Part shown: in pieces, positions 5,463 to 43,210 of the stretch
Layout of the letters: every line of letters begins with the position of its first letter
How positions within the stretch are numbered: the stretch's first letter is position 1
Assembly (NCBI RefSeq): GCF_008868125.1
Contig: NZ_WAAQ01000002.1
Coordinates: 186,001 to 250,000, forward strand
Reading direction: 5' to 3'
From: Microbacterium maritypicum
GTDB taxonomy: Bacteria; Actinomycetota; Actinomycetes; Actinomycetales; Microbacteriaceae
Length of the DNA stretch: 64,000 nucleotides
Notes under the pieces: model-generated
Database searches by the model: none
The model's input: the letters and a program-made list of their open reading frames with translations, nothing else
What the model was told of the DNA's origin: nothing
Position numbers and translations under genes: made by a program

Positions 5463-5482
5463 GAGGGGAGTCCTTCGTTTCG

Positions 5483-5498: not shown

Positions 5499-5510
5499 TG
5501 GGTCAGCGTA

Positions 5511-5975: not shown

Positions 5976-5986
5976 CCCGGCTCGGA

Positions 5987-8933: not shown

Positions 8934-8951
8934 TAGGCAAGGCTATCCTAA
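8933..8951 (-). promoter_or_regulatory. DtxR/IdeR-type iron box overlapping the hmuT start
   Basis: 19-bp sequence ttaggcaaggctatcctaa matches 16 of 19 positions of the DtxR consensus as I recall it (TTAGGTTAGSCTAACCTAA). It begins at the hmuT initiation codon. Iron-loaded DtxR would block transcription or initiation, giving expression under iron starvation. Confidence 0.75.
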
Positions 8952-9001
8952 AACTTGACGCGCGATGATGCGCACCTCTACGCTCGGGGTCGACGGCTTA
9001 C

Positions 9002-9020
9002 TTAGCTAAGCCTAACCAAA
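9002..9020 (+). promoter_or_regulatory. DtxR/IdeR-type iron box upstream of the HtaA-domain gene
   Basis: 19-bp sequence ttagctaagcctaaccaaa matches 16 of 19 positions of the DtxR consensus. It lies 77 bases before the GTG of the HtaA-domain gene, in the divergent intergenic region. With the hmuT box it would place both directions under iron control. Confidence 0.75.
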
Positions 9021-9096
9021 ATCCAACCTTCGCCCGACTGCATTGCGGCACCGCCGGCGTGCGTGTTCTTCTGCGCGCCCGGAGCCGTGGAGAACC

Positions 9097-12000
9097 GTGA
9101 ACGCCTCAGCCACAGCATCCTCAGGGAGCGCCCGCATACGCGTGCTGCTCGCCGCTTTCGTCTCCTTCCTCCTCGTCGCCGCCGGTGCGGTGATCGTCCC
9201 GCCCGCGCACGCCGCCGGCGCGGCGGTCACAGCCGCGGTCGCCTCCGCGGGAACCTCGGGGGTGAGCGTGCAGGTGCAGGTCAGCGGTCTGCCCGAGGTC
9301 GAAGGCGCCTACGCGGCCCTCATCGTGAAGGGCACGGAGTCCGGGCTCAGCGGCGGGGGCGGGTACGCCGCGTTCGTCATGCCGACGGTCGCGGGAGGGG
9401 AGAGCACGTTCACGCTCGACGCGCCGGCCGGCTCGCTGGACCGCACGAAGGCGTACGAAGTGCTCGTCTGGCAGAAGCACTCGAATCCGAACGAGACCAC
9501 GATCTACGGCCGGGGCGATGTCGCCGTCTCGGCCGGGCAGTGGGACGCGGTGTTCGGCACCGTTCCCACCGACCCGGGAACCGACCCGGGAACCGACCCG
9601 GGAACTGACCCCGGTACGGATCCGGGTACCGACCCCGGAACTGACCCCGGTACGGATCCGGGTACCGACCCCGGTACGGATCCGGGTGAGACCCCGAAGT
9701 CGGCGGCGATCGAGGTTTTCCTCGCCGACGGCACGACTCCGGCCGCAGGCGTGGCGCTCAAGGCGGGCGACAAGGTGGTCGTGAAGGGTTCCGGCTACGA
9801 CCCGGCCGCGAACCTCGGGACCGAGGGCCGTGGTGTGCCGATCCCGAAGCACCTCCCGCAGGGGACCTACGTCGTGTTCGGCAACTTCGCCTCGGCATGG
9901 CAGCCCTCCGCCGGGGCCGCGTCATCGGCCCGCTCGGTGGGTACGCAGGTCTGGGCTCTGGCCGAGGGCGTGCTGAACCAGGTCCCTGCGCAGTACCAGG
10001 GTGCGATCCGCGCGCAGTGGGTCGACATCGCGGCCGACGGCACGTTCCAGGCGACTCTGACACTGAAGGATGCCGCGACGGCGCCGGGGTCTTACGGCGT
10101 CTACACCTACGCGGCCGGTGGCGTGATCAATGCCGACCAGGAGCGCAGCGTCGCCCTGAACTACAGCGAGAACCCCACGGTCTCCGCGGTCGTGAAGACG
10201 GCCACCGCGAAGGACGGCCTGACCGTCACGGCATCCGCGTCGAAGCTCGGTGCGATCACCGGCGCGTACGTCGCACTGATCGAGAAGGGCACCGAGGCGA
10301 ACGTCACGGGCAGCAGCGGGTTCCTCGCGATGCAGTACGTGCGTCCGATCTCGGGCGGCGTCTTCACGGTCGACCTGACCGCCGCCGCCGACACGCTCGA
10401 CCGCACGAAGTCCTACGAGGTCATCGTCTGGAAGCAGCACTCGAACCCTGACGCGAGCACCATCTACGCCCGCTCGAGCATCACCGTCACCGACGCGCAG
10501 TGGGAGAGCCTGCAGCCCGCCCCGGTCTCCGCAGCGATCGAGGTGTTCCTCGCCGACGGCACCACCCCGGCGGCCGGAGTGCCGCTCAAGGCCGGTGACG
10601 AGGTCGTGGTGAAGGGTGTGGGCTACGACCCGGCCGCGAACATCGGCGGACGCGGGGTGCCGATCCCGAAGCACCTTCCGCAGGGCACCTACGTCGTCTT
10701 CGGCAACTTCGCCTCGACATGGCAGCCGTCCACGGGTGCCGCATCGTCGACACGTTCGGTCGGCTCGCAGGCCTGGGCTCTGGCCGAGGGCGTGCTGAAC
10801 GAGGTCCCTGCGCAGTATCAGGGCGCGATCCGTGCGCAGTGGGTCGACATCGCGGCCGACGGAACGTTCCAGGCGGCCTTGACGCTGAAGGACGCGGCCA
10901 CGACGCCCGGTTCTTACGGCGTCTACACCTACGCGGCCGGTGGAGTGATCAATGCCGACCAGGAGCGCAGCGTCGCCCTGGACTACGGCGTCACCCCGGC
11001 CGTGACGCCCACGGCGAAGTCTGTGACCGCGAAGGACGGCCTGACCGTCACGGCATCCGCGTCGAAGCTCGGTGCGGTCACCGGCGCGTACGTCGCCGTC
11101 ATCGAGAAGGGCACCGAGGCGGACGTCACCAGCAGCAGCGGATTCCTCGCGATGCAGTACGTGCGCAACATCACCGGAGGCGCGTTCACCGTCGACCTGA
11201 CCGCGGCCGCCGACACGCTCGACCGTACGAAGTCGTACGAGGTCATCGTCTGGAAGCAGCACTCGATGCCCGATGCGAGCACGATCTACGCGCGGGGCGC
11301 CGTCACGGTGACCGACGCGCAGTGGGACACCCTCTTCCCGGCAGGGCCGACCGTCGTCACGACGGTGAAGACGGCGACGGCGAAGGACGGTCTGACCGTC
11401 GCGGCCGCAGCCACGAATCTGGGCGAGATCCCCGGCGCATACGTCGCACTGGTCGAAGCCGGAACCGAGGCAGACGTGAGCGCCGATGGCGGGTTCCTCG
11501 CGATGCAGTGGGCGCAGAAGGTCACGTTCGGCGCCTTCTCGATCGACCTCACGACCGCGGCGAAGAACCTCGACCGCACGAAGTCGTATGAGGTCATCGT
11601 GTGGAAGCAGCACTCGAATCCCGATGCGAGCACGATCTACGCCCGATCGGGCGTGACCATCACGTCCGCACAGTGGGACGCACTGTTCGACGTGGAGGTG
11701 CCGGAGGTGCCCGAGACACCGGTCACGCCGACGACCCCGGCGGCGAACGTTCCCGGCGGCTCCCTCCGCTGGGCGATCTCCTCGTCGTTCACGAACTACA
11801 TCACGAGCGATATCGCCAAGGGCTCGATCGCGGTCTCCGACGGGGCGACCCGTTCGGGCGGCCAGTTCCAGTTCGGCCAGACGGTCGGCGGCGACTTCGA
11901 CATCGCCACCGGTCTCGGCAGCGTCGTGTACCGCGGTTCCGTGCGTTTCACCGGACACCAGGGCGTGCTCGATGTGACCGTGTCGAACCCGCAGATCCGC

Positions 12001-13293
12001 ATCACGTCCGCGAACCTTGCGACGCTGTACGTCACGAGCGGCGGTGCGCAGGTGCCGTTCGCGACCCTCGACCTCTCGAATGCGGCGCGCATCGCGGCCA
12101 ACGGTGCGGTGACGTACACGGCAGCCCCCGCGGCGCTGACCGCCGAGGGACGCGACCGCGTGCTGTCGGGCTACGGCACCACGCTGAACCCCGTGACGTT
12201 CACGATCGGCTCCGTCTCCGCGGCGCCGGCAGGGTCGAGCGGCACGGTCGCAGCGGCGGCCGTCACGTCGAAGACCACGCTCCCGGCGACCCCGCCGGCG
12301 ACCGAGGGCATCGACGCCGACGAGGCCAACCTGTCGGCGCTCGCCTCAGGGCGGCCGGCGACGGTGTCGGCATCCGGATTCCGCGCGAACGAGCAGGGAA
12401 TCAAGGTCGTCGTCTACTCCACCCCGGTTCTGCTCGACACCGTGACGGCCGACGCGAACGGCGTCGCCACCTGGTCGGGTGCACTCCCGGCAAGTCTCGA
12501 GGACGGCGCGCACACGCTCACGTTCCAGGGCTCGGTGAACCGCGGTCTCGCGTTCACGCTGAACAGGGCCACGACCGCGATCGGCGTCTGCACGGTCGAG
12601 GGCGCCACGCTCGAGTGGGGCTACAAGGAGTCGTTCCGCACCTACATCGAGGGCATCGCGAAGGGCGGCTGGACGCTGACCGACGTCGCCTACCGGTACC
12701 CCGACTACGTGTGGGAGAACGGCACCGGTTCGTTCGACGACAAGACCCTCGCCGGCCTGGTCTCGTACGGCGGGAGCATCACGTTCACCGGTCACGAGGG
12801 AGCGCTGAACACGACGCTCGCGAACGCCGGTGTCGAGCTCGCCGGAGAGAAGGGCTATCTCGTCTTCGACGTGACCGGCACCACGCAGGGCGGAGAGCGC
12901 ATCGACCAGAAGGGCGTGCGTCTCGCAGAGTTCCCCCTCGGCGATGCGGCCGCGGCCGACGGTGTGTTGACGCTCGACGCGATCCCGACCACGCTGACAG
13001 AGGCCGGCGCATCCGCGTTCGGCACCTACGCCGCGGGTGAGGAGCTCGACCCGGTCACCGCCGTGATCCCGGTCGGCGCCGACTGCGGCGTCGCCGAGGA
13101 GAAGCCCGACTCCGACTCCGCGGCGACCGCAGTGGTGACCACCGCGAACGAGCCTGCGGACGCCGAAGGCGCCCCGGTGTGGCCGTGGATCGTCGGCGGC
13201 CTGCTCGTCATCCTGCTCGCGGCGACCGGCGGTGTGCTGATCGTCCGCCGCAACCGCGAGGCCGAGACCGCCGACACGGCGACCGAGCTCTAG
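9097..13293 (+). CDS. htaA: Giant modular HtaA-domain haem-binding surface protein
   Basis: 1,398-residue membrane-anchored surface protein. A signal peptide (about 1-40, ending PPAHAA) is followed by repeat type A (about 45-155) and a (DPGT)n linker (about 157-198). Next come repeat type B (203-358), A (359-475), B (479-630), A (632-748) and A (752-865), a Pro-rich linker, HtaA domain 1 (about 888-1043), an Ig-like domain, HtaA domain 2 (about 1169-1330), and one membrane helix (about 1362-1383) with a basic tail. Both HtaA domains keep the Tyr (SFTNYI, SFRTYI) and His (FTGHQG, FTGHEG) that correspond to haem ligands in corynebacterial HtaA. The GTG was chosen because a GGAG lies before it and a signal peptide follows. 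It faces hmuTUV and probably captures haem and passes it to HmuT. The A/B repeats make it much larger than typical HtaA. Confidence 0.88.
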   Translation: MNASATASSGSARIRVLLAAFVSFLLVAAGAVIVPPAHAAGAAVTAAVASAGTSGVSVQVQVSGLPEVEGAYAALIVKGTESGLSGGGGYAAFVMPTVAGGESTFTLDAPAGSLDRTKAYEVLVWQKHSNPNETTIYGRGDVAVSAGQWDAVFGTVPTDPGTDPGTDPGTDPGTDPGTDPGTDPGTDPGTDPGTDPGETPKSAAIEVFLADGTTPAAGVALKAGDKVVVKGSGYDPAANLGTEGRGVPIPKHLPQGTYVVFGNFASAWQPSAGAASSARSVGTQVWALAEGVLNQVPAQYQGAIRAQWVDIAADGTFQATLTLKDAATAPGSYGVYTYAAGGVINADQERSVALNYSENPTVSAVVKTATAKDGLTVTASASKLGAITGAYVALIEKGTEANVTGSSGFLAMQYVRPISGGVFTVDLTAAADTLDRTKSYEVIVWKQHSNPDASTIYARSSITVTDAQWESLQPAPVSAAIEVFLADGTTPAAGVPLKAGDEVVVKGVGYDPAANIGGRGVPIPKHLPQGTYVVFGNFASTWQPSTGAASSTRSVGSQAWALAEGVLNEVPAQYQGAIRAQWVDIAADGTFQAALTLKDAATTPGSYGVYTYAAGGVINADQERSVALDYGVTPAVTPTAKSVTAKDGLTVTASASKLGAVTGAYVAVIEKGTEADVTSSSGFLAMQYVRNITGGAFTVDLTAAADTLDRTKSYEVIVWKQHSMPDASTIYARGAVTVTDAQWDTLFPAGPTVVTTVKTATAKDGLTVAAAATNLGEIPGAYVALVEAGTEADVSADGGFLAMQWAQKVTFGAFSIDLTTAAKNLDRTKSYEVIVWKQHSNPDASTIYARSGVTITSAQWDALFDVEVPEVPETPVTPTTPAANVPGGSLRWAISSSFTNYITSDIAKGSIAVSDGATRSGGQFQFGQTVGGDFDIATGLGSVVYRGSVRFTGHQGVLDVTVSNPQIRITSANLATLYVTSGGAQVPFATLDLSNAARIAANGAVTYTAAPAALTAEGRDRVLSGYGTTLNPVTFTIGSVSAAPAGSSGTVAAAAVTSKTTLPATPPATEGIDADEANLSALASGRPATVSASGFRANEQGIKVVVYSTPVLLDTVTADANGVATWSGALPASLEDGAHTLTFQGSVNRGLAFTLNRATTAIGVCTVEGATLEWGYKESFRTYIEGIAKGGWTLTDVAYRYPDYVWENGTGSFDDKTLAGLVSYGGSITFTGHEGALNTTLANAGVELAGEKGYLVFDVTGTTQGGERIDQKGVRLAEFPLGDAAAADGVLTLDAIPTTLTEAGASAFGTYAAGEELDPVTAVIPVGADCGVAEEKPDSDSAATAVVTTANEPADAEGAPVWPWIVGGLLVILLAATGGVLIVRRNREAETADTATEL
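9567..9690 (+). repeat. (Asp-Pro-Gly-Thr)n coding repeat
   Basis: About ten tandem 12-base units encoding Asp-Pro-Gly-Thr form a flexible linker in the HtaA-domain protein. The unit varies between gacccgggaact- and gatccgggtacc-like forms, and some six-base palindromes (ggtacc, ggatcc) arise from it. Slippage could change linker length between strains. Confidence 0.85.
9703..11340 (+). repeat. 828-base duplicated module inside the HtaA-domain gene
   Basis: The segment starting at 9703 (B repeat plus A repeat) is repeated starting at 10531 with very similar sequence. Examples are the shared peptides AAIEVFLADGTTPAAGV, PKHLPQGTYVVFGNFAS and GAIRAQWVDIAADGTFQA. The offset measured at identical codons is 828 bases (276 codons). 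A further A repeat follows at about 11350. The high similarity suggests recent internal duplication. Confidence 0.85.
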
Positions 13294-13308
13294 CCGACGC
13301 GCACCACG

Positions 13309-13347
13309 GAACGGCCCTCCCCGCGGCGGACGCGGGGAGGGCCGTTC
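13309..13347 (+). terminator. Intrinsic terminator-like hairpin after the HtaA-domain gene
   Basis: Perfect 17-bp stem (gaacggccctccccgcg with its complement) and a 5-base loop, 16 bases after the stop codon. Confidence 0.85.
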
Positions 13348-13395
13348 TCTCGTCACCCGGTGCGCGGTATCCGTCGGTGGTGGGACAATGGATGC

Positions 13396-13710
13396 ATGGC
13401 CCCCACCGACTCCCACCAGACCGTCGAAGCGACCGTGCGCCGCGTGCCGCGGTACGGCGTGCTCATGGGCATCGGCGTCGTGGTCGGCGTGATCGCGGCC
13501 GGCATCCTCACCTGGACCGGCAGCTTCGACGAGTCGCAGGCCCTCGACGTCGTCTACCCGCCCGGTCAAGTGTTCGGTTTCCTGCTGCTGTGGACCGTTC
13601 CGATCGGCATTGCGCTCGGCGGCATCGCCGGCCTGATCATGGAGCGCCTCGCCCGTCGTCACGACCGGGTCGTGCGGGTCGACCGCGAGACCGTCGTCGA
13701 AGAGGACTGA
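13396..13710 (+). CDS. Small two-helix membrane protein
   Basis: 104-residue hypothetical protein with two clear membrane segments: YGVLMGIGVVVGVIAAGILTW near residues 20-40 and VFGFLLLWTVPIGIALGGIAGLIM near residues 58-81. The charged C-terminus (ERLARRHDRVVRVDRETVVEED) is probably cytoplasmic. I do not recognise a functional motif. The ATG at MAPTDSHQ was chosen over an upstream frame that enters the preceding terminator. It stands alone between a terminator and a convergent hypothetical gene. Confidence 0.7.
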   Translation: MAPTDSHQTVEATVRRVPRYGVLMGIGVVVGVIAAGILTWTGSFDESQALDVVYPPGQVFGFLLLWTVPIGIALGGIAGLIMERLARRHDRVVRVDRETVVEED

Positions 13711-13713
13711 CCT

Positions 13714-14319
13714 CTACGCGAGTTCGGCGATCACCGGGCGGATCGCGGCGTCGAACGCCACGACGTCCCGACGCAGGCCATCGGTCACCGCCACTGTGAG
13801 CGCTCCGATCCACCAGATCCCCCGCTGCGACAGCGGGAGCACCTGCACGTTCAGCTCGAAGGAGTGCGCACGCCGCCCGACCTCGCGCTCGAACTCCGCG
13901 ATCGCGCTGGCATATGCCCGGTAGGAGTCGCTGCCTGTGTGGCTCTTCATCGACGACACGTAGCGGTCGTGCGCCCTGCGGGCGTATTCCAGGACGGGTG
14001 TCGCGAATGGTGTGATCGCCGAGGTCAGCTCTGCGGCCCCGGAGGCCGGCAGGGCCACCAGGGTGTCGAAGCCGTCGACGAGTTCGAGAGGGACGCCAGA
14101 GTGATGCGCGCGCGGCTCGACCGTCATGTCCCAGTACTCGCGCCACTGCGCTTCGACCGCGGGAGAGGCCGTGGCGGCATCCGGAGTTCTGACCGGCAGA
14201 TCGCGCAGGCCCGGCAGATCGTCCGTGGCTCGGATGCCGAGTCCTTGGCGCAGCGCTAGCGCCACGAGAACCGGTACGCTCGCGTCTTCGCGGATCAGCC
14301 ACTGCGGCTTGTCGGACAT
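13714..14319 (-). CDS. Hypothetical protein
   Basis: 201-residue soluble protein of unknown function, starting MSDKPQWLIREDASVPVLVALALRQGLGI. It is alpha-helical in appearance, with a Trp-rich ending (QRGIWWIGALTVAVTDGLRRDVVAFDAAIRPVIAELA). No signal peptide, membrane helix or known catalytic motif was seen. Its start codon lies inside a long perfect inverted repeat. Its stop is 3 bases from the convergent small membrane-protein gene. Confidence 0.65.
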   Translation of the reverse strand: MSDKPQWLIREDASVPVLVALALRQGLGIRATDDLPGLRDLPVRTPDAATASPAVEAQWREYWDMTVEPRAHHSGVPLELVDGFDTLVALPASGAAELTSAITPFATPVLEYARRAHDRYVSSMKSHTGSDSYRAYASAIAEFEREVGRRAHSFELNVQVLPLSQRGIWWIGALTVAVTDGLRRDVVAFDAAIRPVIAELA

Positions 14320-14348
14320 GGCCCCATCGTAGGTGCGATGGGGCCATG
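14317..14348 (-). other. Perfect inverted repeat covering the start codon of the upstream-reading gene
   Basis: 13-bp arms (catggccccatcg and complement) separated by six bases. The outermost bases are the ATG of the gene at 13714-14319 read on the minus strand. In RNA this hairpin would hide the start codon. It could instead be the terminator of the adhesin gene ending at 14421. Confidence 0.7.
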
Positions 14349-14420
14349 TGCGGCAATGAGCGTCGCGACCTTCGCGCCTCTTGAACGGAAAGTGTGCTGC
14401 GCGCCGGATCGGAATACGAC

Positions 14421-16076
14421 CTAGGTGAGCGAACGCGAGCGCCGCCGTGCGCCTCGCGCGGACATCAGTGCGGCGCCGACGAGGAGGAGCAAACCGCTCA
14501 GCGCGAGCGCGGGCGACTGGTCGACACCGCCGGTGTTGGCGAGGGTGCCATTGCCGGTGTTGGCGACGGTGCCATCGCCGGATCCACCGCCCGTCGTCGG
14601 CACGTCCGCTCGCACGTTGGCGACGGCCAGGTCGATGCCTGCTGTTGTGGTTCCTTCGGTCACGGAGAACTCGATCGGCGACGCGAGGAGGACGTAGCCG
14701 GTTGGGGCGGTGATCTCCTTGAGCCAGTAGGACTGGTATCCGGTGTCGCCGGGTGCCACGGGCGCTCCGTTGGCCCAGTCCGAGCGCCTGATCTCCGACA
14801 GCGTGAGCGTTCCGTCAGCGCCCACCGGGAAGACGGAGAGGCCGTCGAGGGTCACGGGGTTGACGCCCGCGGTCGCATCCGCCTGGCTCAGGAAGATGGA
14901 GAAGGATGCTCCGCTGAGCGGTGCGCCCGAGACGTCGGTCTTGGCGATCGTGATGCCTCCGAACAGGTCCGCCGGGGCGACGAAGTCGGTCGTCGCGGAC
15001 GCCGACAGGCTCTCTCCCGTCGGCGTGAGGAAGTCGACGAAGACCTGGCAAGTCGGATCGCCGTTCCACACGTAGGACAGGTCGATCGCGGTGGGCATTC
15101 CGGTCGCTGCCGCCGTCAGAGTGACCGCCCCTGCGGTGTCGGTCGTCGTGCACAGAGCCACGTTCGAGGACTGGGGAGCTGTGAGGATGCCGTCCGTCAA
15201 CGTGACACCAGCTGCCGCACCCGGGCAGAGCGTCACGGGCCCGGTGCCGGTGGAGGTGATCGTGATCGGCCAGTCGAAGTTAGCGGCAACAGTGAACTGG
15301 GCGGTCTGAGCGACAGTCGTCGAGGGCTGAGCCGGTCCGGTGACCGCGAGCGTCGGCGTCGCGGGGATGACCGGATGCTGCGCGCACGTCGCCTCCGCGT
15401 CGGAGATCACGGCGGTCTCCGGGTTGGCCGGGTCGGAGCCGTCGAACTGGTACTGGTTGAAGTAGTTCCGCGCCTCAGTGTTCACCGTGTCGGCCGCGTG
15501 GCCCTCGCTGAGACACCACACCTGCAGCTGCGCCAGTGCCCGCGACCGCTTCGTACTGACATCAGCCGTGCTCAGAACGTAGGCGATCTGGTGCGCCGAC
15601 TCCTCGCTGATCTTCGGGTTGCCCTCGACCTCCCCAGGAGGGCGGCCTGCGCATCCGCCGGCGTGGAAGTCGGTGCAGAAGCGCCACCCCAGATCGACGT
15701 TGCCCGCGCCATCCAGCTTGCCGCCGCAGTACGGCAGCCCGCCGGCGAAGCTCGACAGCGCTCCGGTCGCGTCATCCATCACACGCGTCCCCTCGTTTCC
15801 GTACTGGAAAACGACTCTGCTGGCGAGAAGTTCGGTTTGCGCCTCCCCGATCAGGGTGAACGAGGTGGGCGTGTTGTCAGATCCGTCGGCCGTGGACGTG
15901 GTGCCCTCGCACGCCGGCACAACGGGCGGATCCGTCAGGGGTACAGATACGACACTGCGCACCGGAGATACAGAGGGCCCGGCCGCTGACGCTGGTTGCA
16001 CGCCAGCGAGTACGGCGATCACTGCGGCAACGACACCGATCATCCAGGGGCGACCCACGCGAACTCGAATTCTCAT
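14421..16076 (-). CDS. Thioester-domain / SpaA-domain surface adhesin with class-E sortase signal
   Basis: 551-residue secreted wall-linked protein. A signal peptide (WMIGVVAAVIAVLAGVQPASAAG) precedes a region with RFCTDF and a helical stretch ending ALAQLQVWCLSEG. This resembles the Cys...Gln pair of thioester (TQXA) adhesin domains. After a beta-rich region comes a SpaA/Cna-B prealbumin-like domain (GGITIAKTDVSGAPLSGASF ... YWLKEITAPTGYVL). The C-terminus is the LANTG class-E sortase motif, a hydrophobic helix and a basic tail (RRRSRS). The ATG was chosen for the GGAGAG upstream. A covalent host- or surface-binding adhesin is the inferred role. No sortase gene is in the window. Confidence 0.82.
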   Translation of the reverse strand: MRIRVRVGRPWMIGVVAAVIAVLAGVQPASAAGPSVSPVRSVVSVPLTDPPVVPACEGTTSTADGSDNTPTSFTLIGEAQTELLASRVVFQYGNEGTRVMDDATGALSSFAGGLPYCGGKLDGAGNVDLGWRFCTDFHAGGCAGRPPGEVEGNPKISEESAHQIAYVLSTADVSTKRSRALAQLQVWCLSEGHAADTVNTEARNYFNQYQFDGSDPANPETAVISDAEATCAQHPVIPATPTLAVTGPAQPSTTVAQTAQFTVAANFDWPITITSTGTGPVTLCPGAAAGVTLTDGILTAPQSSNVALCTTTDTAGAVTLTAAATGMPTAIDLSYVWNGDPTCQVFVDFLTPTGESLSASATTDFVAPADLFGGITIAKTDVSGAPLSGASFSIFLSQADATAGVNPVTLDGLSVFPVGADGTLTLSEIRRSDWANGAPVAPGDTGYQSYWLKEITAPTGYVLLASPIEFSVTEGTTTAGIDLAVANVRADVPTTGGGSGDGTVANTGNGTLANTGGVDQSPALALSGLLLLVGAALMSARGARRRSRSLT

Positions 16077-16334
16077 GCTTCTCTCCCAGTTAGAGGCGTT
16101 CGACGCGCAAGACGGGTCGAACAGGCCCAGAGCCCCCAGCGAAGCCCCGATACTCATGAGACGCAAGACGTCGCCGTTCATTACGGTCGCACGTGAAGTT
16201 CGGTGAGTCAACGTCTTGCTGGCGGTGCCCGATCGGACCTCGAGTGCTGACGGGCAATCGGTCGCGGTTCGAGTGCGTCATCCGTGCCTCTCGATCCGGA
16301 GATCGCGGCCCTCGGCTGACGGTAGGATCGAGGT

Positions 16335-36568: not shown

Positions 36569-36582
36569 CACGATATATCGTG
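36569..36582. promoter_or_regulatory. PadR operator copy 1
   Basis: Perfect palindrome cacgatatatcgtg, 25 bases before the DUF4097 start codon. Confidence 0.7.
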
Positions 36583-36596
36583 TGTTGCCACAATAA

Positions 36597-36610
36597 CACG
36601 ATATATCTCG
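36597..36610. promoter_or_regulatory. PadR operator copy 2
   Basis: cacgatatatctcg, nearly the same as copy 1 and 28 bases away, so probably on the same helix face. Together they form an AT-rich island in high-GC DNA. Confidence 0.65.
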
Positions 36611-36669
36611 ATCCTGTCAAGGGTGTCTGGGAGATAGTGCTCCGCGGCGACGAACCCTGGTGCCCGACG

Positions 36670-37566
36670 TCACGAGCGGGAGAGGTACCACGCGGCAGAC
36701 GAGGGCGCGAGTGAGAACGGCGAGGTGAGGCTCCCCGTGTACACCTGGGCGAGCTTGTCGACATTCAAGTGTCGATCGGCGGCAAGGAAGCGATAGGCGG
36801 GATGCGTCGCGATATCCGTCATGATTGCAGCGTCACTCCGTGGCCCTGGCGCCGGGACGCCGAGCAGATCGATCAACGCGGACACCGTGATGGGTTCGGC
36901 GTTCCCGGCGTGAAAGACCTCCGCTGGCCACCGCCGCGGGCTGACAGCGAGCTCGGCGAGTACGCGTCCCAGAAGCGTGACCTCGATCGCGGTGTGGCGC
37001 GCCGAACCCGCGTCTCCCAGCGAGCCGAATCTGGTCAGGAGATCGCGGATTCCGTCAGCAACCCAACGGTCTCCGTGGCCGAGCACCAGATGCGGTCGTA
37101 CGACCGTTCCGCCTGCGTCGAGAACGATGAGTTCTGCTTCGCGACGTGATTGACTGCGGACCGTTCGCGGCGCGGGCTCTCGAGCGCCTTCGACCAGATC
37201 GTGAAATCGGTGATCGCCGTATACCGCAGCGGTGCTGACGTAGACCAGTGGCCCGTGGGCGTTCTCCTGCCATTCTCGAACGACGTTGCGCGTGCCGTCG
37301 ATGTTGATCGATCTGCACAGGCTCGAGTCGCTCCCGATATAGGAGGCTGAGTGCACGACTGCCGTGGCGCCCGTCAAAGCCAGCCGGAGTTCGCGAGCGT
37401 CTCGAATGTCGACGGGGCGGCCCGCCGGTCCGATCTCACGCCGCGAGAGCGTCCGGACGGTGACGCCCTGTTCGGCCAGGGCGGCCTTGGTGTGACTGCC
37501 GATGAATCCGCTGCTCCCGATCAGTGCCACTTCTGCCGTCGACGGAAGCGAACCGGTGCCGCTCAT
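36670..37566 (-). CDS. NAD-dependent epimerase/dehydratase-like protein of the butyrolactone cluster
   Basis: 298-residue extended-SDR protein. The Rossmann loop VALIGSSGFIGSHTKAAL binds NAD(P). VHSASYIG and LVYVSTAAVYGDH match the family core. The usual Tyr-x3-Lys pair seems to be replaced (RSQSR before REAELIV), so normal epimerase chemistry is doubtful. It is divergent from the butyrolactone-receptor-like TetR gene, with 65 bases between. Related oxidoreductase genes accompany afsA/scbA homologues in Streptomyces, so a role in making or finishing the signal is inferred. Confidence 0.75.
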   Translation of the reverse strand: MSGTGSLPSTAEVALIGSSGFIGSHTKAALAEQGVTVRTLSRREIGPAGRPVDIRDARELRLALTGATAVVHSASYIGSDSSLCRSINIDGTRNVVREWQENAHGPLVYVSTAAVYGDHRFHDLVEGAREPAPRTVRSQSRREAELIVLDAGGTVVRPHLVLGHGDRWVADGIRDLLTRFGSLGDAGSARHTAIEVTLLGRVLAELAVSPRRWPAEVFHAGNAEPITVSALIDLLGVPAPGPRSDAAIMTDIATHPAYRFLAADRHLNVDKLAQVYTGSLTSPFSLAPSSAAWYLSRS

Positions 37567-37631
37567 CGGCGGGCACGGGCGGCACCGGCGGACGGTAGAG
37601 TACTGACGACCCCTGAACACCTGGAGACCTG

Positions 37632-38267
37632 ATGCAGGAACGGGCGCGCACGACTCGACGGAGAATACTCGAAGGCGCCGCGGTGGCGATCCGTCGGTCG
37701 GGATACGCCAACGCTACGCTCGGGGAAATCACGGACGCCGCCGGAGTGACTGCGGGCGCGCTCTATTTTCATTTTCGCTCCAAGGAAGATGTCGCTCGAG
37801 CTCTGGTCGACGAACAGCACCGTATCGTGCGTGAGGCCGCCGCCGAGATCCTCTCGGTGGAGCGCCCGGCCATCACGCAGATGATGCTGCTCTGCGAGGA
37901 CCTCGCGCGACGATTGACGGACGAAGAGATTGTGCGTGCCGGGGTTCGGCTCACCACGGACTCTTCCATCTTCAGCCGACCCGTCACGGATCCCTACCTC
38001 GACTGGCTCGAGCTCTTCACTGAGCTCGCGCGTGCAGCCGATGCGAACAAGGAGACGAACGGCGAGATTCCCCCAGAGGTCCTTTCCCGTTTCATCATTC
38101 CCAGTTTCACCGGGATTCAGTTGGTGTCCGAGACGCTCACGGGGCGGGCTGATCTCAGGGGACGCGTCGGCGAGATGTGGCATGTCCTGGTGAAGGCCGT
38201 GTCACACACCGACCGCAGAGTCGAGTTCATCGATGAGGCGGACCGGATCTTCGGAGATACTGGTTGA
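37632..38267 (+). CDS. Gamma-butyrolactone-receptor-like TetR regulator (ScbR/ArpA family)
   Basis: 211-residue TetR-fold protein. The DNA-binding half reads RTTRRRILEGAAVAIRRSGYANATLGEITDAAGVTAGALYFHFRSKEDVARALVDEQH. The VTAGALYFHF(R/S)SKE motif and the following AEQH-like turn are characteristic of butyrolactone receptors. The ligand half carries TDPYLDWLELFTELARAA. An upstream GGAG and a TAGAGT -10-like box at 37596-37601 support the start. It is divergent from the epimerase-like gene and convergent with the AfsA-like gene, whose 3' end it overlaps by 66 bases. It probably represses the cluster until the hormone binds. Confidence 0.87.
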   Translation: MQERARTTRRRILEGAAVAIRRSGYANATLGEITDAAGVTAGALYFHFRSKEDVARALVDEQHRIVREAAAEILSVERPAITQMMLLCEDLARRLTDEEIVRAGVRLTTDSSIFSRPVTDPYLDWLELFTELARAADANKETNGEIPPEVLSRFIIPSFTGIQLVSETLTGRADLRGRVGEMWHVLVKAVSHTDRRVEFIDEADRIFGDTG

Positions 38268-39131
38268 GGGACTCGTCTGCAGCTTCGCGGAGGCGCAGAC
38301 AGCATGCCTTCCGTCCTGGACGATGATGAACTCGACATCCCGTGTGCCGGGACGAGGGCGAACGTCGAGGAGGGCTTCCGTGCCGAACTCGACGGTGCTT
38401 GAGTAGACGGCGTCGAACGTCTCGAATTCGGCGGTGGGGCAGCGTGTGAGCGCAGCGACCGACTGTCGGAATGCCTCTATCACGGCAACCCCCGGGACGT
38501 GGTCGAGTGGATGATCGAAGTAGAACGGGTGGTGCCCGTCGACATCGAGTGTGGTCTCGTCGTCTACTTGCCGGATGACCACGTCGATCTCGGAGTGTCT
38601 TCCTATCTGGCTCGCACGGATGTTGCTCGCCGGACGTCCGGACGACGGCTGCGCATCTGCGTGCGCACCCCGGAAGCGTCGATAGGTGGAGCTGTCGACG
38701 ATGCGCGCATCGCCGTACCCTGACGCGAGGCTTCCCTGTTCATCGTTGAACTCGAAGCGGATCCGCGTGGACCGGAGCTGCCCATCCGCGGCGAACCTCG
38801 GCGACTCCGCCCATGCTCGCGCCTTCAGTCGGGTGCTCAGCCGCTGCGGGCTCGTCATCTCGAAGCCGAGCCCCAGCATGATGAACTGCTGGGTAGGCGC
38901 AACGCCATACCCGAGGTGACAGATCATGATAGTCGACTGTCGGATCATCTCAGCGAGAAACAGTGAATCGAAGCGGTCGCCCGCGAAGACTTGATCAGGG
39001 GGTCTTCTCAACGTGATCGCGAAGTCCGCACCGTTGTCGATGAACCCCGTGGGCAGCACGGAGTCAGATGACGATCGGTGCACCGTCGACCTGTCGATGG
39101 CGCCATCCTCGGTCGTGATCGTCGGTGCCAC
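38202..39131 (-). CDS. AfsA/ScbA-family gamma-butyrolactone biosynthesis protein
   Basis: 309-residue protein with two AfsA-type hotdog halves. The first has VHRSSSDSVLP and DSLFLAEMIRQSTIMICHLGYGVAPTQQF. The second has HHPFYFDHPLDHVPGVAVIEAFRQ, the family's most recognisable motif. AfsA joins a beta-ketoacyl chain from ACP to dihydroxyacetone phosphate, the first step to A-factor-like butyrolactones. Length matches AfsA/ScbA. The GTG was chosen because it shares its first base with the TAG stop of the permease gene (TAGTG), so this gene is translationally coupled to the ABC operon. Its 3' end overlaps the receptor gene. Confidence 0.88.
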   Translation of the reverse strand: MAPTITTEDGAIDRSTVHRSSSDSVLPTGFIDNGADFAITLRRPPDQVFAGDRFDSLFLAEMIRQSTIMICHLGYGVAPTQQFIMLGLGFEMTSPQRLSTRLKARAWAESPRFAADGQLRSTRIRFEFNDEQGSLASGYGDARIVDSSTYRRFRGAHADAQPSSGRPASNIRASQIGRHSEIDVVIRQVDDETTLDVDGHHPFYFDHPLDHVPGVAVIEAFRQSVAALTRCPTAEFETFDAVYSSTVEFGTEALLDVRPRPGTRDVEFIIVQDGRHAVCASAKLQTSPSTSISEDPVRLIDELDSAVGV

Positions 39132-40336
39132 TATCTGCTCCTCGACATGACGGTGATGAACGGATCGGTCTTCAAGGCCCGCCGTGAGGCGACGACGGAG
39201 ACGACGAGGCAGAAGAGGGCCACGACCAGTGCCAGGACAGGCACCGCGAGCGCGCCGGTGAGAACCAATGGCGGAGCGACACCGGGCACGAGCGCGACGA
39301 CGAGCAACGCGCCGATCGACACGCCCGCCAGCGCACCGCCGAACGCACCGGCGAGGCTGCCGGCCGCGACGTCGAGAGCGATGAGGTGCTTGACGTCGCG
39401 GGATGTCCACCCGTGGATCCGGAGGAGTGCGAACTCCGGGGCTCTGCGTTCCAGGGAACCGCGCACAGCACGAGAGAGCTGGAGCAGAAGGAGGACGGCG
39501 CTCCCGCATGCGGCGACCAGGAGGATCTGCGGGAAGATCGCAAAGATCCCCGGCAGAGTTCCGAGTCGGTCGCCCACCGGCACGGCGGTGAATCCCAGAT
39601 CCCGGAGCTCGGCAGTGACCTGCGGTACCTCGTCGGACGATGCGGAGGTCACGGTGACCGCCGTCAATCCGACAGTCGCAAGATAATCGTCGGCAGGCAA
39701 GCCTCCCCGCGCCGCCAGGAGCTCGAGCACCAGATCTTCGGATGCGAGGGCGACTCCGGGACCATAGCCCTGCCAGGTCGATTCATAGGACGCGACGAAA
39801 TGCACCTCGCGTTCGCTCAACTCGCCGGTGCTGTCGCCCGTCATCCGCGTGTACGCGACGGGAACCGCTTCGCCGACGAGAGCAGACAGGTCCGATCCGT
39901 CGGCTTTGTCCGGAACCACGATCCCGTCGCCGACGACCTCGCCTGCTGCAGCTTCAGGCAGGTCCGGTGGGAGATTGGCCGGGTTCAGCACATGAAGGGT
40001 GAGGGCCCACGTGCTGCCGTCGGCGGCGTAGATCCCCACTGACGCATTCGGAAGAACGTCCACGACTCCAGAGATCGCCGCCATCCGCTCTATGTCTTTC
40101 GATGTGATGCCGCCGATCTGGTCCTCCGCGCCTGCGGCCGGCGTCACGTCAACTTGTGTCAGTGCTGTGCTCGAGACCTCCTGCGCCCTCACGAATCCCG
40201 AGAGCACGGCCACCGGGGTCAAGATGGCGCTCAGGACGAGCGTCGCGAAAGCGACGGGGAGAACCAAGTCTCGGGCGGTCGAGAATCGCCGGCGCACGGA
40301 GAGGGCGAACCACTGGCTGGGGCGGGGAAAACTCAC
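39131..40336 (-). CDS. FtsX/MacB-type ABC transporter permease
   Basis: 401-residue permease with the FtsX layout. A first helix (LVLPVAFATLVLSAILTPVAVLSGF, about 24-48) is followed by a large extracellular domain (about 50-270) and three C-terminal helices (ILLVAACGSAVLLLL, AGAFGGALAGVSIGALLVVALVPG, LAVPVLALVVALFCLVVSVVAS). The intracellular loop FALLRIHGWTSRDVKHL is typical. Such transporters export peptides or lipoproteins, or sense envelope signals. The GTG overlaps the ATPase stop (GTGA). It is the fourth gene of the secreted-protein/AfsA operon. Confidence 0.85.
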   Translation of the reverse strand: MSFPRPSQWFALSVRRRFSTARDLVLPVAFATLVLSAILTPVAVLSGFVRAQEVSSTALTQVDVTPAAGAEDQIGGITSKDIERMAAISGVVDVLPNASVGIYAADGSTWALTLHVLNPANLPPDLPEAAAGEVVGDGIVVPDKADGSDLSALVGEAVPVAYTRMTGDSTGELSEREVHFVASYESTWQGYGPGVALASEDLVLELLAARGGLPADDYLATVGLTAVTVTSASSDEVPQVTAELRDLGFTAVPVGDRLGTLPGIFAIFPQILLVAACGSAVLLLLQLSRAVRGSLERRAPEFALLRIHGWTSRDVKHLIALDVAAGSLAGAFGGALAGVSIGALLVVALVPGVAPPLVLTGALAVPVLALVVALFCLVVSVVASRRALKTDPFITVMSRSR

Positions 40337-40947
40337 AGCTCTCCACCCTCGGATTCGAGCGTCACGACGGCGTCGACGAGCTTCATCACCTGAGGGTCGT
40401 GGGTGGCGATCAGAACCGCGCTTCCTCGGTCGGCGATGGTTCTCAGCGCAGCCATCACCCGCCGACCGTTCGCCTCATCCAGGCTTCCGGTGGGCTCATC
40501 TGCGAGGATCACGTCCGCGTCCTGGGCAATGGCCGCGGCGATGGCCGCTCGTTGGCGCTGGCCGAGAGACAGCGCGGAGGGAGCTGAGTCCGCCAGCTCG
40601 TGCATTCCGAGACCTTCGAGAACCGCGACGGCGCGCCGTTTCGAGGCGCGTCGAGGTGGGCCGAACGCCAGAGCCACGTTCTCCCACAGAGACAGGTCTT
40701 CGAAGAGTGAGCTGTTCTGCGTGATCAACGCACGCGATCCGGCGGCGGAGGTGTCGGTTCCGTTCCACGTGACGCGGCCCGAATCAGGCCGAAGCACGGA
40801 GGCCAGGCAGGCGAGGATCGTGGACTTCCCGGAGCCGGATGGTCCGACCAGCGCTGTGACTCTGCCGGCGTGCGCTTGCAGATTGACATGGGAGATGCCG
40901 CGCGCACTCCCGGGGTATCGGTAGCTCACATCTTCAGCTTGAAGCAT
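40333..40947 (-). CDS. ABC transporter ATP-binding protein (MacB/LolD type)
   Basis: 204-residue ATPase: Walker [11 protein letters not shown]-loop LITQNSSLFEDLSLWENV, signature LSLGQRQR, Walker B VILADEPTGSLD, switch IATHDPQV. The signature is LSLGQ rather than LSGGQ, a mild variant. DEPTGSLD marks the MacB/LolD/FtsE clade that pairs with FtsX-type permeases. The ATG lies three bases after the stop of the lipoprotein gene. Small ATPases of this clade also accompany lactococcin-972-type bacteriocins, a possible parallel only. Confidence 0.9.
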   Translation of the reverse strand: MLQAEDVSYRYPGSARGISHVNLQAHAGRVTALVGPSGSGKSTILACLASVLRPDSGRVTWNGTDTSAAGSRALITQNSSLFEDLSLWENVALAFGPPRRASKRRAVAVLEGLGMHELADSAPSALSLGQRQRAAIAAAIAQDADVILADEPTGSLDEANGRRVMAALRTIADRGSAVLIATHDPQVMKLVDAVVTLESEGGEL

Positions 40948-40950
40948 CGA

Positions 40951-42573
40951 TCACTCGGTCCAATTCTCAATTCGTGCACGGAGCAACTCCAGTGGCAGTG
41001 GGCGCGCCTTGGTGACATACCCGGTCCCCTCTGATTCATCGATCAACGCGATAAGGCCGTCGAGGCTCGCCGACACAGCGTCGCGCATCTCGCTGTCGCC
41101 GCTGCCATCGGTGCCTAGCGCGTGGAGGATCACGTAGCCGGCCGCCGACTGGAAATCCGTCGTCTGCATGGCAGCGGACGCGTCGTCGATATAGTCCTGC
41201 TTGGAGAAGGACAAAGTCTCCCAGCACTCCTTCTGAGACATGGCGAGCATCGCGAGCGACAACGGAGCGTCCTGGGCCCATTGGTCCACCGTCTCGGGCG
41301 TGCAGCCCGGAAGTTCGAGTTCGGCAACGGCAGCCGCTTCGAGGATCCGCGCCGTCGACAGGTCATCGCCGGGTGTCGGAATGCCCAGATCTTCGATGCT
41401 TGCCATCACGGTGCTGCGGACCTCTTCGATCACGCTCGCGGGGCATGCACTGGCCAGGGACTCGCACAGATACAGGATGTCGCTGGCCGAGCCCGCGTCG
41501 GACCATGCCAGGGGGTCGCCCTCCAAGGCCGTTGCGAGACCCTCCGCGATCCAATCCGGAGGCGTATCGATCCCCCGCGTCTTCAGGAGGGTAACCGCGT
41601 CGCGAGTCGCCGCGACGGTCCCCAGTCCTGTCGGCTCGTCGGCCGCCGTGCTGAACACCGCGTCGACGCGGCTCCAGTCGGACACTGCAGCGGCGTTGTG
41701 CTCGAGAATGCCGGACAGCACGGCGGGCGGCATATGAGCGGAAACGAAGTAGTACAGCACCGTCGGGTCGTTCAACTCCGTCGTCGTGCTCTCCGCGCAT
41801 TGCATGATCGTGTCGGGAAGCGTCGCTGCTCGTGACGCGGCGGTGGCCCACGCCTGTCGCCACTGCGTGCATCCTTCCGACGCGATTTCTGACTGAAGCT
41901 GCTCTATGTCCTCGGGGGCCACCGTCGGCGAGGAGGACTCCGCGAGGAGCCCCTGATGCTGCAATGAAACGAACGGCAACGGAAAGCTCTCGACGGATTG
42001 CTGCAGTCTGTCACGGATGTCGTGTGGCACAGCGGCCGCGGCCACTCCGTCGCGACAGGCCATTGCGCTCAACACGTCGGCTGCCAACACGGCCGCGTCC
42101 TCGTCATCGATAGACGGTAGGTCCTTCGCAGAGAGCGCGTCGAGGGCGGCGGCGGCGTCAGGCGAGAGAGCGCTGCGGGCCTTCCGGGAATCTCCGGATG
42201 AGATCTCGCACAGTTGGGAGAAGATCGCCGGAGCATCCTCTGGCGAGCGGTCGGCGAGCCGCCTCAGTTCGACGTCATCCATCGGCTCGGGCTCAGCCCC
42301 AACGTACCGTTGGCTCATGGAGATGGCTGCGACCCCGGCGAGCGTCGCAGTTGCAGGTAGCTCGAGCGAAGCGTGCGCCAGGTCATTGACGCCTCTCAAG
42401 CGGTCGACGTACTCATATGTATCGGCCTGCGTGGCACTCCGCTCGTCCTCCGCAGATGTGCAGCCGGTCAAGCCGATCAGTGTCGCCGTGAGAGCAACGA
42501 TCGCGGGGACGGCCCCCGCGCGTCGTGGCCTCGGGTCTTGACCCGAGGCCACCGTACGCGTGAGGTCTACCAC
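40951..42573 (-). CDS. Large lipoprotein of unknown function in the butyrolactone operon
   Basis: 540-residue predicted lipoprotein. The signal region AGAVPAIVALTATLIGLTGC gives a lipobox Cys followed by TSAEDERSATQ. The rest is helical and acidic with scattered Cys residues (QLCEISSG, SAMACRDG, EGCTQW, TIMQCAES, YLCESLASACPA, LPGCTPE, QKECWE). It looks repeat-like and could form extracellular disulfides. I recognise no family. The GTG at 42573 was chosen; it overlaps the end of the secreted-protein gene by seven bases, so translation is coupled. Its place between the secreted protein and the transporter suggests an immunity, chaperone or receptor role (inference). Confidence 0.72.
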   Translation of the reverse strand: MVDLTRTVASGQDPRPRRAGAVPAIVALTATLIGLTGCTSAEDERSATQADTYEYVDRLRGVNDLAHASLELPATATLAGVAAISMSQRYVGAEPEPMDDVELRRLADRSPEDAPAIFSQLCEISSGDSRKARSALSPDAAAALDALSAKDLPSIDDEDAAVLAADVLSAMACRDGVAAAAVPHDIRDRLQQSVESFPLPFVSLQHQGLLAESSSPTVAPEDIEQLQSEIASEGCTQWRQAWATAASRAATLPDTIMQCAESTTTELNDPTVLYYFVSAHMPPAVLSGILEHNAAAVSDWSRVDAVFSTAADEPTGLGTVAATRDAVTLLKTRGIDTPPDWIAEGLATALEGDPLAWSDAGSASDILYLCESLASACPASVIEEVRSTVMASIEDLGIPTPGDDLSTARILEAAAVAELELPGCTPETVDQWAQDAPLSLAMLAMSQKECWETLSFSKQDYIDDASAAMQTTDFQSAAGYVILHALGTDGSGDSEMRDAVSASLDGLIALIDESEGTGYVTKARPLPLELLRARIENWTE

Positions 42574-43040
42574 GACCAAACGTCGACGTAGTTCTTCACG
42601 CCCTGATGGACCGCGAAAGCTGCGCTGTTCGCGTGCACCGAGACTGTCAGCCCGGAGTACGAAGCCGTGCCGCCGAGGTCGGAGATCCAGGCGTTGTTGT
42701 TCGTCCAGCTCAGAGACTTCGCGGACGCCGACCCCCCGACGCTCACTCCCCCCGGCACCGAGATCGATGCATTGACGCCTCGCGCCTCGATCGTCGCGGT
42801 GTTCTTGATGGTGGCAACCGACTTGGCGCTTCCGTTGACGGTCGCCTTCGATGACGTGGCGAAGTCGGCTCGACCCCCGCTCAACACGCTCTGGCTCCAG
42901 GCGTTCGCCTGAAGATTGATGTTCGTACCCGGCAGGGTGACGCTGCGGCTGCCGCTGAAAGCCTGTGCACTGGTGGCGCCGGCCACGATGAGCCCCACTG
43001 CCAGTACGGCCCCCGTGAGGGCCTTGGATCGATTCTTCAT
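42567..43040 (-). CDS. Small secreted protein of unknown family, first gene of the butyrolactone operon
   Basis: 157-residue preprotein. The signal peptide KALTGAVLAVGLIVAGATSAQA predicts cleavage after AQA and a mature chain of about 128 residues. The mature part is rich in Ser, Ala, Asn, Thr and Gly, has no Cys, and shows alternating polar/hydrophobic residues as in beta-strands. It ends with the aromatic tail NYVDVWSW. A strong AAGGAA ribosome site precedes the ATG. Its size and neighbours (lipoprotein, exporter) recall bacteriocin cassettes, but I see no lactococcin-972 signature. Candidate roles are a toxin, a matrix protein or a signalling protein. Confidence 0.75.
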   Translation of the reverse strand: MKNRSKALTGAVLAVGLIVAGATSAQAFSGSRSVTLPGTNINLQANAWSQSVLSGGRADFATSSKATVNGSAKSVATIKNTATIEARGVNASISVPGGVSVGGSASAKSLSWTNNNAWISDLGGTASYSGLTVSVHANSAAFAVHQGVKNYVDVWSW

Positions 43041-43081
43041 TGAATTCCTTCCGGTCGAGGCGTCGTGTGACGCCTGATCAG

Positions 43082-43103
43082 AAACATACAGAATGACCTG
43101 TTT
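43082..43103 (-). promoter_or_regulatory. Possible butyrolactone-receptor (ARE-like) site
   Basis: 22-base imperfect inverted repeat with perfect outer arms AAACA and TGTTT on the minus strand. It lies between the -35 and -10 boxes of the operon promoter, where butyrolactone receptors commonly bind. The centre is not symmetrical, so this is tentative. Confidence 0.35.
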
Positions 43104-43111
43104 ATTTTCAA
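43083..43111 (-). promoter_or_regulatory. Promoter of the secreted-protein/AfsA operon
   Basis: On the minus strand TTGAAA (43111-43106), a 17-base spacer, and TATGTT (43088-43083). This predicts a start near 43076 and a leader of about 36 bases. The surrounding DNA is unusually AT-rich for the window. Confidence 0.6.
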
Positions 43112-43139
43112 TCAATTTGACATGAATCCGGCGATCGTC

Positions 43140-43170
43140 TTGACCTTGACGCTACGTCAACTTCTAGAGT
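43140..43170 (+). promoter_or_regulatory. MerR-type promoter of the TipAL-like gene
   Basis: TTGACC (43140-43145) and TAGAGT (43165-43170) are separated by 19 bases, the stretched spacing of MerR-controlled promoters. The spacer contains the inverted repeat ttgacg-cta-cgtcaa (43146-43160). Autoactivation is likely. Confidence 0.65.
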
Positions 43171-43210
43171 TCAAGACAACACCACGCAGAGCACGAAGGA
43201 AGGAGGAGCG

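Follow-up and report, generated by a model that had tools for sequence, protein, structure and literature searches.

Most of what is known about control by butyrolactones comes from Streptomyces antibiotic clusters, and in S. coelicolor the synthase gene scbA and the receptor gene scbR diverge. In the cited sections of two studies of S. coelicolor, the synthase gene adjoins that of the TetR-family receptor, the binding sites are palindromic, and antisense transcription of scbA and scbR has been modelled as a bistable switch (PMC3134472, PMC4595836). Synthase, receptor and epimerase functions are clustered as gblA-gblR-gblE in Rhodococcus jostii, where a diffusible butyrolactone-like molecule has been demonstrated and deletion of gblA abolishes the hormone; the cited sections describe unconserved flanking genes and no secreted-protein operon (PMC5735094). 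An AfsA cluster of Ruegeria pomeroyi, which carries immunity genes and whose transcription depends on AfsA, is required for both killing and immunity; the killing agent is given as unknown, and no secreted-protein/MacB-type cassette is described in the cited sections (PMC7426152). Streptococcin B and lactococcin 972-type loci encode a quorum-controlled beta-sandwich bacteriocin, thought to be Sec-secreted, together with membrane or transport partners of unproven role, and according to the cited text their signal is a peptide (PMC11796350). As regards Microbacterium, the excerpts cited here report the genus as lacking quorum-sensing evidence, "not even bioinformatic", in a 2016 review (PMC4748050), and antiSMASH butyrolactone clusters among the types found in <10% of 70 genomes (PMC7438953). 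Our search of the AfsA literature found no AfsA/secreted-protein operon; it covered mostly titles and the beginnings of abstracts outside subscription journals and is therefore weak evidence of absence. Within that coverage nothing turned up on AfsA together with gamma-butyrolactone in Micrococcales, or on gamma-butyrolactone together with lactococcin in actinobacteria.

A predicted butyrolactone module joined to a five-gene operon

We identified an afsA gene at the end of an operon in the window, the whole 64,000-nucleotide stretch of Microbacterium maritypicum DNA that was analysed (Table 1). Genes, families, gene order, the surrounding block and the operator-like and promoter-like sites were read from the sequence. 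As stated in the preliminary description, a four-gene cassette and afsA form a five-gene operon: all genes lie on the minus strand, and coordinates and family matches agree. The secreted-protein and lipoprotein genes overlap by 7 bp, 3 bp separate the lipoprotein and ATPase genes, the ATPase and permease genes overlap by 4 bp, and the last start indeed overlaps the permease stop by one base, the G of GTG being that of TAG. The permease gene contains one terminator-like sequence on the same strand as the operon (three found in the scan versus 2.5 expected).

Table 1. Predicted features of the locus; positions are those of the window.
Feature	Position	Strand	Remarks
Lower-G+C block	36624-43135	.	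missing in same-genus relatives, where the flanking genes adjoin
NAD-dependent epimerase/dehydratase gene	36670-37566	-	GblE-like by family and position
ScbR/ArpA-family butyrolactone receptor (GblR-like TetR repressor) gene	37632-38267	+	NF041196
AfsA/ScbA-family butyrolactone synthase (GblA-like) gene	38202-39131	-	GTG start
FtsX-type permease gene	39131-40336	-	FtsX 1.6e-07
ABC ATPase gene, MacB/FtsE/LolD type	40333-40947	-	ABC_tran 1.1e-30
Lipoprotein gene, 540 aa	40951-42573	-	GTG start; LTGC lipobox by eye
Secreted protein gene, 157 aa	42567-43040	-	first in operon; Sec-type signal peptide, AQA/F site by eye
Predicted sigma-70-type promoter TTGAAA-17-TATGTT	43083-43111	-	overlaps operator-like site
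Predicted receptor operator (ARE-like) AAACAGGTCATTCTGTAT	43086-43103	-	45 bp ahead of the operon's first gene

The AfsA protein matches PF03756 (3.9e-22; 79.1 bits versus a cut-off of 24) in two stretches that represent two AfsA domains, and its residues that do not vary across an alignment of six AfsA proteins include E61, R64, Q65, E219 and Q223. Because its score against the NCBIfam ScbA/BarX equivalog NF041195 lies below the cut-off (174.1 versus 200 bits), that name is withheld and the family membership kept. A sequence search of solved structures gave just two matches (E 0.56 and 0.76). No second AfsA-like gene is present in its genome.

The receptor and epimerase genes had been left out of the preliminary description, which treated AfsA as departing from its normal place beside its receptor gene. 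The neighbouring gene encodes a protein above the NF041196 cut-off (181.8 versus 150 bits), with CprB as its closest solved structure (8.1e-29). Since this ScbR-family receptor gene adjoins afsA, the usual placement of AfsA beside its receptor is followed here, not broken. The receptor gene is convergent with afsA, their 3' ends overlapping by 66 bp, and divergent from the epimerase gene, whose GblE-like label reflects family and position. The three adjacent genes resemble the Rhodococcus gblA-gblR-gblE module in functions and grouping, whereas afsA here ends a secreted-protein operon. In contrast to S. coelicolor, the synthase and receptor genes converge and the synthase gene lies within the presumed output operon. 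Convergence of afsA with the receptor gene combined with a divergent epimerase gene was found in 8 of 21 AfsA regions, the window included.

Genomic block and distribution

The genes flanking the locus are neighbours in same-genus relatives, and the seven genes, promoter and operator-like site therefore make up one 6.5-kb block of lower G+C content (0.645 at 36572-43210 versus 0.68-0.69 in the flanks). The seven-gene unit is apparently mobile. Its exact order was met in a single genome when 398 genomes of the family and 247 of the genus, a sample of the species, were searched. The preliminary description held that the system may be undescribed in Microbacteriaceae; AfsA itself is not new to the family: PF03756 matches occur in 21 of the 398 family genomes (25 AfsA places by row count), and the 21 AfsA regions analysed are those found by similarity, leaving out G073:C8, G263:C19, G253 and G365. 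The preliminary description had named a gene order confined to one genome as grounds for rejecting its reading; this is true of the exact order, but AfsA recurs near other secreted-protein/MacB-type cassettes in three further genomes, which belong to two other genera (G182, G371 and, with two copies, G345). A Homoserinibacter genome (G058) has the four-gene cassette but no AfsA and lies outside the 21 PF03756-matching genomes. In the search for relatives of the lipoprotein, the best 7994 candidates were scored; the matches include lipoproteins with 93% (P0021) and 80% (P0022) identity.

An operator-like site over the predicted operon promoter

An unguided scan first drew attention to the operator-like site, which is an 8/10 inverted repeat; inverted repeats from 18 stretches, scanned before published consensuses were applied, showed no obvious common motif. 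Two receptor-operator consensuses were taken from two publications, AAACVGNNBVNNCSGTTT and AWWCCRBBHDDNMSGTWT. The site is the sole place in the 64 kb within two mismatches of the first consensus, and none of the other 400-bp stretches sampled equalled it. For the 400-bp region upstream of the operon alone, the location of the match has p 0.032. Only the location is unusual, and not the number of matches, because whole-window shuffles gave a mean of 5.16 matches to the first consensus versus 2 observed (both strands of one site). With the second consensus the site is one of 7 window matches, 7.4 being expected. Upstream of the receptor gene, no site within two mismatches of the first consensus was found.

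First-consensus sites at the same threshold were found in 10 of the 21 AfsA regions versus 0.75 expected from shuffles (11 had none), and in 12 of 312 control gene-upstream regions. For the window, the region counted is the one that precedes the operon and not the one that precedes afsA. Ahead of afsA, a site is present in 9 of the 20 other Microbacteriaceae regions, two of which (L049 and L050) are near-duplicates; with this near-identical pair counted once, the overall figure of 10 of 21 becomes 9 of 20. Both arms of the L049/L050 site are the same as those in the window (AAACAG....TTCTGTAT). The 12 control matches represent 10 distinct sites; four fall in L033, at positions among which is the front of the L033 HlyD-like gene (the HlyD expectation, about 0.1 of 19, was calculated by hand), and two lie ahead of receptor-like genes (L041, L044). 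Gene starts in these region counts are extrapolations based on the alignment and may be inaccurate, mostly in L041, L043 and L044; those of L038 and L039 were placed by hand. The Homoserinibacter stretch with the cassette and no AfsA (L006) showed no first-consensus match within two mismatches, and its one 2-mismatch match to the second consensus is distant from the cassette promoter. Promoter-like sequence extends across the site in two of ten stretches scanned (the window and L032a).

The preliminary description had proposed a positive loop in which the operon makes its own inducer. The adjoining receptor gene, the operator-like site over the predicted promoter and the single block absent from relatives now lend this loop independent sequence support, and it is plausible. 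We consider it unlikely that the genes are chance neighbours, a butyrolactone module having landed downstream of an unrelated cassette so that afsA is read through and the operon escapes receptor control. The Homoserinibacter cassette, the single occurrence of the exact order and the frequency of chance consensus matches across the window would fit such an origin, but the block is bounded by the gene set, the site over the operon promoter has the arms found ahead of afsA in L049/L050, and MacB-type cassettes near AfsA recur.

Secreted protein, lipoprotein and transporter

The secreted protein is a predicted beta-sandwich and belongs to a small, well conserved family without a Pfam match. Family profile searches gave no match above cut-off and none to a bacteriocin family, in which it differs from the streptococcin B and lactococcin 972-type proteins, and a sequence search of solved structures with the family returned one match (E 0.94). 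The family and fold searches lend no support to an antibacterial role. Membership of the MspA porins was rejected, as there was no PF09203 sequence-profile match and hhalign gave 4%, although MspA was the best fold. A lactococcin 972-type locus was rejected on the missing bacteriocin match and on the ATPase score (133.8 versus a TIGR03608 cut-off of 254.85 bits).

The model of the secreted protein also resembles adhesins at middling Z (FnBPA 8.4, ClfA 7.5, SdrD 7.3). Together with the conservation within the family, this is consistent with a real butyrolactone switch that controls a surface, adhesion or matrix protein, the lipoprotein and FtsX/MacB pair aiding release, assembly or anchoring. 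The quorum system would then time a community trait, not a weapon; we regard this as somewhat unlikely.

No family match was found for the lipoprotein, which is predicted to be all-helical (model pLDDT 73.8, five sequences), and a PDB search with its model gave nothing at E ≤0.001. The permease matches PF02687 with 31.8 bits; no solved structure matched it by sequence up to E 0.1. In MacB/FtsX proteins an outer domain is flanked by a single membrane segment on the N-terminal side and three on the C-terminal side. Hydropathy placed hydrophobic segments of the permease at 24-42, 267-285, 318-336 and 364-382, the first being followed by a large domain, and the ATPase and FtsX permease thus form a MacB/FtsX-type transporter with 1+3 segments. 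Two features make the label "exporter" doubtful: the FtsX/MacB-like nature of the transporter, and the Sec-type signal peptide that the secreted protein itself bears. In view of the signal peptide, carriage of the protein across the membrane by the transporter was rejected as the main reading. Export of the butyrolactone or another small molecule, with the secreted protein as carrier or sensor, is very improbable: the synthase and permease genes are joined start to end, but the cassette is retained in Homoserinibacter outside the PF03756-matching genomes, and butyrolactones are considered freely diffusible. An anti-phage defence function was discarded, since PADLOC matched the ABC ATPase alone among five proteins searched, in 29 families of generic ATPases (best mad3, 2.5e-29).

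A proposed portable switch with a likely antagonistic output

Rated slightly better than even, our main interpretation is a portable self-amplifying butyrolactone switch that drives a likely antagonistic secreted protein, with the transporter and lipoprotein serving self-protection or release. The switch itself appears fairly well supported by the sequence features; we infer the antibacterial role, as well as receptor binding, hormone, feedback and the function of the transporter. The receptor would bind the operator and repress the operon promoter, while basal AfsA activity, aided by the epimerase, would yield butyrolactone. At a threshold the butyrolactone would free the receptor from the operator, the entire operon would be transcribed, and afsA, its last gene, would boost hormone output, giving positive feedback; the overlap between afsA and the receptor gene, being antisense, may make this sharper. 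As its output the switch would have the Sec-secreted beta-sandwich protein, most likely antagonistic (bacteriocin-like), and the lipoprotein and MacB-type transporter would act after secretion, in self-protection or release, not export. With a hormone maker, a sensor and a helper enzyme built onto the operon, cells could therefore turn the secreted protein on jointly. Small and complete, the island lends itself to testing as a switch, since it has a single receptor, a single predicted operator and a single output operon. A new secreted-protein family is also indicated, and the island suggests a mining rule, namely to inspect what AfsA/GblR modules are joined to.

A wider reading, which we hold tentatively and at less than even confidence, is that weapon islands of one class, portable and switched by butyrolactone, occur in Microbacteriaceae. 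Such islands would combine a gblA-gblR-gblE module with exchangeable cargo, either peptide or polyketide clusters or several unrelated small secreted proteins, each accompanied by a lipoprotein and a MacB-type transporter that confer self-protection. In the window, with the synthase absorbed into the cargo operon, the weapon would therefore make its own trigger, and the secreted protein would represent, as its first member, a new Sec-secreted beta-sandwich antibacterial family.

In the receptor tree the window clusters with L032a, L032b and L033 (89/83, branch not starred), all three of which are near secreted-protein/MacB-type cassettes; adding L034 gives a starred branch (95/86).

Apparently broken afsA copies were seen in L032a (two frames), L033 (a stop, with a transposase gene against afsA) and L035 (a stop).

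A butyrolactone module adjoins the secreted-protein operon

Re-reading of the window sequence confirmed all five minus-strand genes, with the junctions between them, as given in the preliminary description: those for a secreted protein, a lipoprotein, an ABC-family ATPase and an FtsX-family permease (both families from profile searches) and, last, afsA. In the same searches the lipoprotein had no family match and the secreted protein none above the cut-off. The AfsA identity held for PF03756, matched above its cut-off, but the ScbA/BarX equivalog NF041195 was missed (174.1 of 200 bits). Profile searches also found two genes beside afsA that were absent from that description, a receptor gene, convergent with afsA with a 66 bp overlap, and an epimerase gene (Table). 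The nearest solved structure to the receptor is CprB (8.1e-29). Synthase, receptor and epimerase are also the described functions of Rhodococcus gblA, gblR and gblE, where a butyrolactone-like molecule requires gblA (PMC5735094).

Table. Features of the window and of related stretches.
Feature	Stretch	Position	Remarks
PadR/DUF4097 pair	window	35.1-36.6 kb	left flank of block
NAD-epimerase gene	window	36670-37566	divergent from receptor gene
ScbR-family receptor gene	window	37632-38267 (+)	NF041196 181.8 bits, cut-off 150
Predicted operator AAACAGGTCATTCTGTAT	window	43086-43103	ahead of operon
Predicted promoter TTGAAA-17-TATGTT	window	43111-43083	overlaps predicted operator
MerR-TipAS gene	window	43.2 kb	right flank of block
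Apparent insertion hot spot	window	36572-43210	
Apparent insertion hot spot	L077	5980-9550	
Apparent insertion hot spot	L078	8661-9534	
Apparent insertion hot spot	L081	10155-10933	
Two afsA/receptor pairs	L032 (G345)	3600-16200	~7.4 kb apart, each divergent from own cassette
afsA region	L033 (G371)	2183-8935	afsA abuts IS481-type transposase gene
Operator-like site	L033 (G371)	2281-2298	ahead of HlyD-like gene
afsA region	L034	225-8951	afsA divergent from type III PKS-like enzyme, enoyl-CoA hydratase and aminotransferase genes
afsA region	L035	8033-11667	afsA adjoins AurF-like and asparagine-synthase genes
Operator-like site	L035	8279-8296	ahead of afsA; perfect match to SfbR operator consensus
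afsA region	L038	9226-12974	AfsA beside APH-like protein, HopA1-domain protein, two 68-aa peptides

A predicted operator lies ahead of the operon

The predicted operator is an inverted repeat found by an unguided scan before published consensuses for receptor binding sites, AAACVGNNBVNNCSGTTT (consensus 1; PMC7480387) and AWWCCRBBHDDNMSGTWT (consensus 2; PMC5744401), were applied. It is the sole place in the 64 kb with at most two mismatches to consensus 1. Since the shuffled whole window gave a mean of 5.16 matches, the whole-window count is uninformative, and the location of the site, not the number of matches, is what counts. No other sampled 400-bp stretch equalled its region for consensus 1, and comparison of the region with its own shuffles gave p 0.032. 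For consensus 2 the site is one of 7 window matches, with 7.4 expected. Consensus 1 sites were present in 10 of 21 AfsA regions (0.75 expected) and in 12 of 312 control regions; the near-duplicate stretches L049 and L050 have AAACAGAGTGTTCTGTAT, with arms identical to those of the window site. None lies ahead of the window's receptor gene.

The predicted promoter is the only promoter-like sequence ahead of the operon. The 6.7 kb scanned contained three promoter-like sites (0.7 expected), another of them within afsA, and three terminator-like sites (2.5 expected), one on the operon strand within the permease gene.

We propose repression, release and amplification because these steps follow from the parts present: the receptor would sit on the predicted operator and repress the operon, the butyrolactone hormone would free it, and induction would raise hormone synthesis, afsA being last in the operon. 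In S. coelicolor, a published model treats convergent transcription of the synthase and receptor genes as a bistable switch (PMC3134472), and an AfsA-dependent cluster in Ruegeria is described as carrying killing and immunity genes (PMC7426152). Predicted from its parts, the butyrolactone switch is likely to be real; that its output is antagonistic is a tentative prediction. For the whole, a self-contained seven-gene unit switched by butyrolactone with an antagonistic secreted protein, we lean slightly in favor.

Cassette and hormone module are separable

PF03756 matches occurred in 21 of 398 family genomes, and the window AfsA as query matched in 6 of 247 same-genus genomes, its own counted. 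The arrangement with afsA convergent with the receptor gene and the epimerase gene divergent from it was found in 8 of the 21 AfsA regions (window counted); L032a, one of two copies in genome G345, has afsA and receptor and no epimerase. The cassette is rare, its secreted protein occurring in 3 of the 398 genomes. The two carriers besides the window genome, both also returned by a genome contig scan, are Homoserinibacter sp. GY 40078 and a MAG whose contig stops just past the permease gene. The lipoprotein matched in four of the 398, the weakest match (G219) being inside an unrelated gene with no cassette adjoining; metagenome proteins 93% and 80% identical to the window lipoprotein are known from protein sequence alone. 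Homoserinibacter has the four cassette genes in the window's order with no AfsA adjoining, and it is not one of the 21 family genomes, of 398, that PF03756 matched. Its TetR matches to the window receptor are weak (best 1.1e-6), and its stretch contains no consensus 1 site and one two-mismatch consensus 2 match, far from the cassette promoter. Because Homoserinibacter has the cassette without AfsA, cassette and hormone module are separable.

AfsA recurs near other cassettes and other cargo

The link between afsA and a secreted-protein/exporter operon put forward earlier stood in part: the seven-gene order was met once, but AfsA lies near other secreted-protein/transporter cassettes in G345, G182 and G371. 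Both G345 copies of afsA, and the G182 gene, diverge from a different type of cassette, which encodes a small secreted protein, a lipoprotein, an HlyD-like protein that carries a peptidoglycan-binding domain, an ATPase and a permease; similar genes lie ~5 kb from afsA in G371. As G345 and G371 are one genus, these are at most three independent cases, window counted. An AfsA gene lay no more than 8 kb from 4 of the 20 HlyD matches in the 21 AfsA genomes (the query being one of the 4), with about 0.1 of the other 19 expected by chance (hand arithmetic). Pfam FtsX alone gave a weaker picture, with only G000, G126, G182 and G371 within 8 kb among the matches listed; the G182 permease matched FtsX, and the G345 permease submitted to Pfam had no match. 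The G371 afsA may be inactive, because it has a stop in frame and a transposase gene alongside; the PF10379 match of the small secreted protein in G371 is weak (E 0.019, below cut-off). The first afsA of L032 is broken over two frames.

The hormone module is constant and the attached cargo varies among AfsA regions. We take the L034 cluster to be perhaps a dihydroxyphenylglycine-type pathway, and L038, with two operator-like sites ahead of afsA, resembles a class V lanthipeptide cluster. The L035 afsA frame contains a stop.

The block occupies a variable site

The PadR/DUF4097 pair adjoins the MerR-TipAS gene in five of six same-genus relatives examined (of nine found), with spacers of about 150, 135, 780, 875 and 3570 bp; in the sixth, the MerR gene was not found. 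The stretches fetched from the six gave no match >60 bits to the window's seven genes. Window similarity to two of them, L078 and L079, ends near 36,620 and restarts near 43,135-43,140. The block (three hormone genes, four cassette genes, predicted promoter and operator) has a G+C of 0.645 vs 0.68-0.69 outside. The relatives could alternatively have lost the block; insertion in the window genome is the simplest reading. The spacer looks like an insertion hot spot. Other material occupies it in relatives; read by eye, this encodes ABC-type proteins along with membrane proteins, or a secreted-type protein of 191 aa, or consists of a repeat array.
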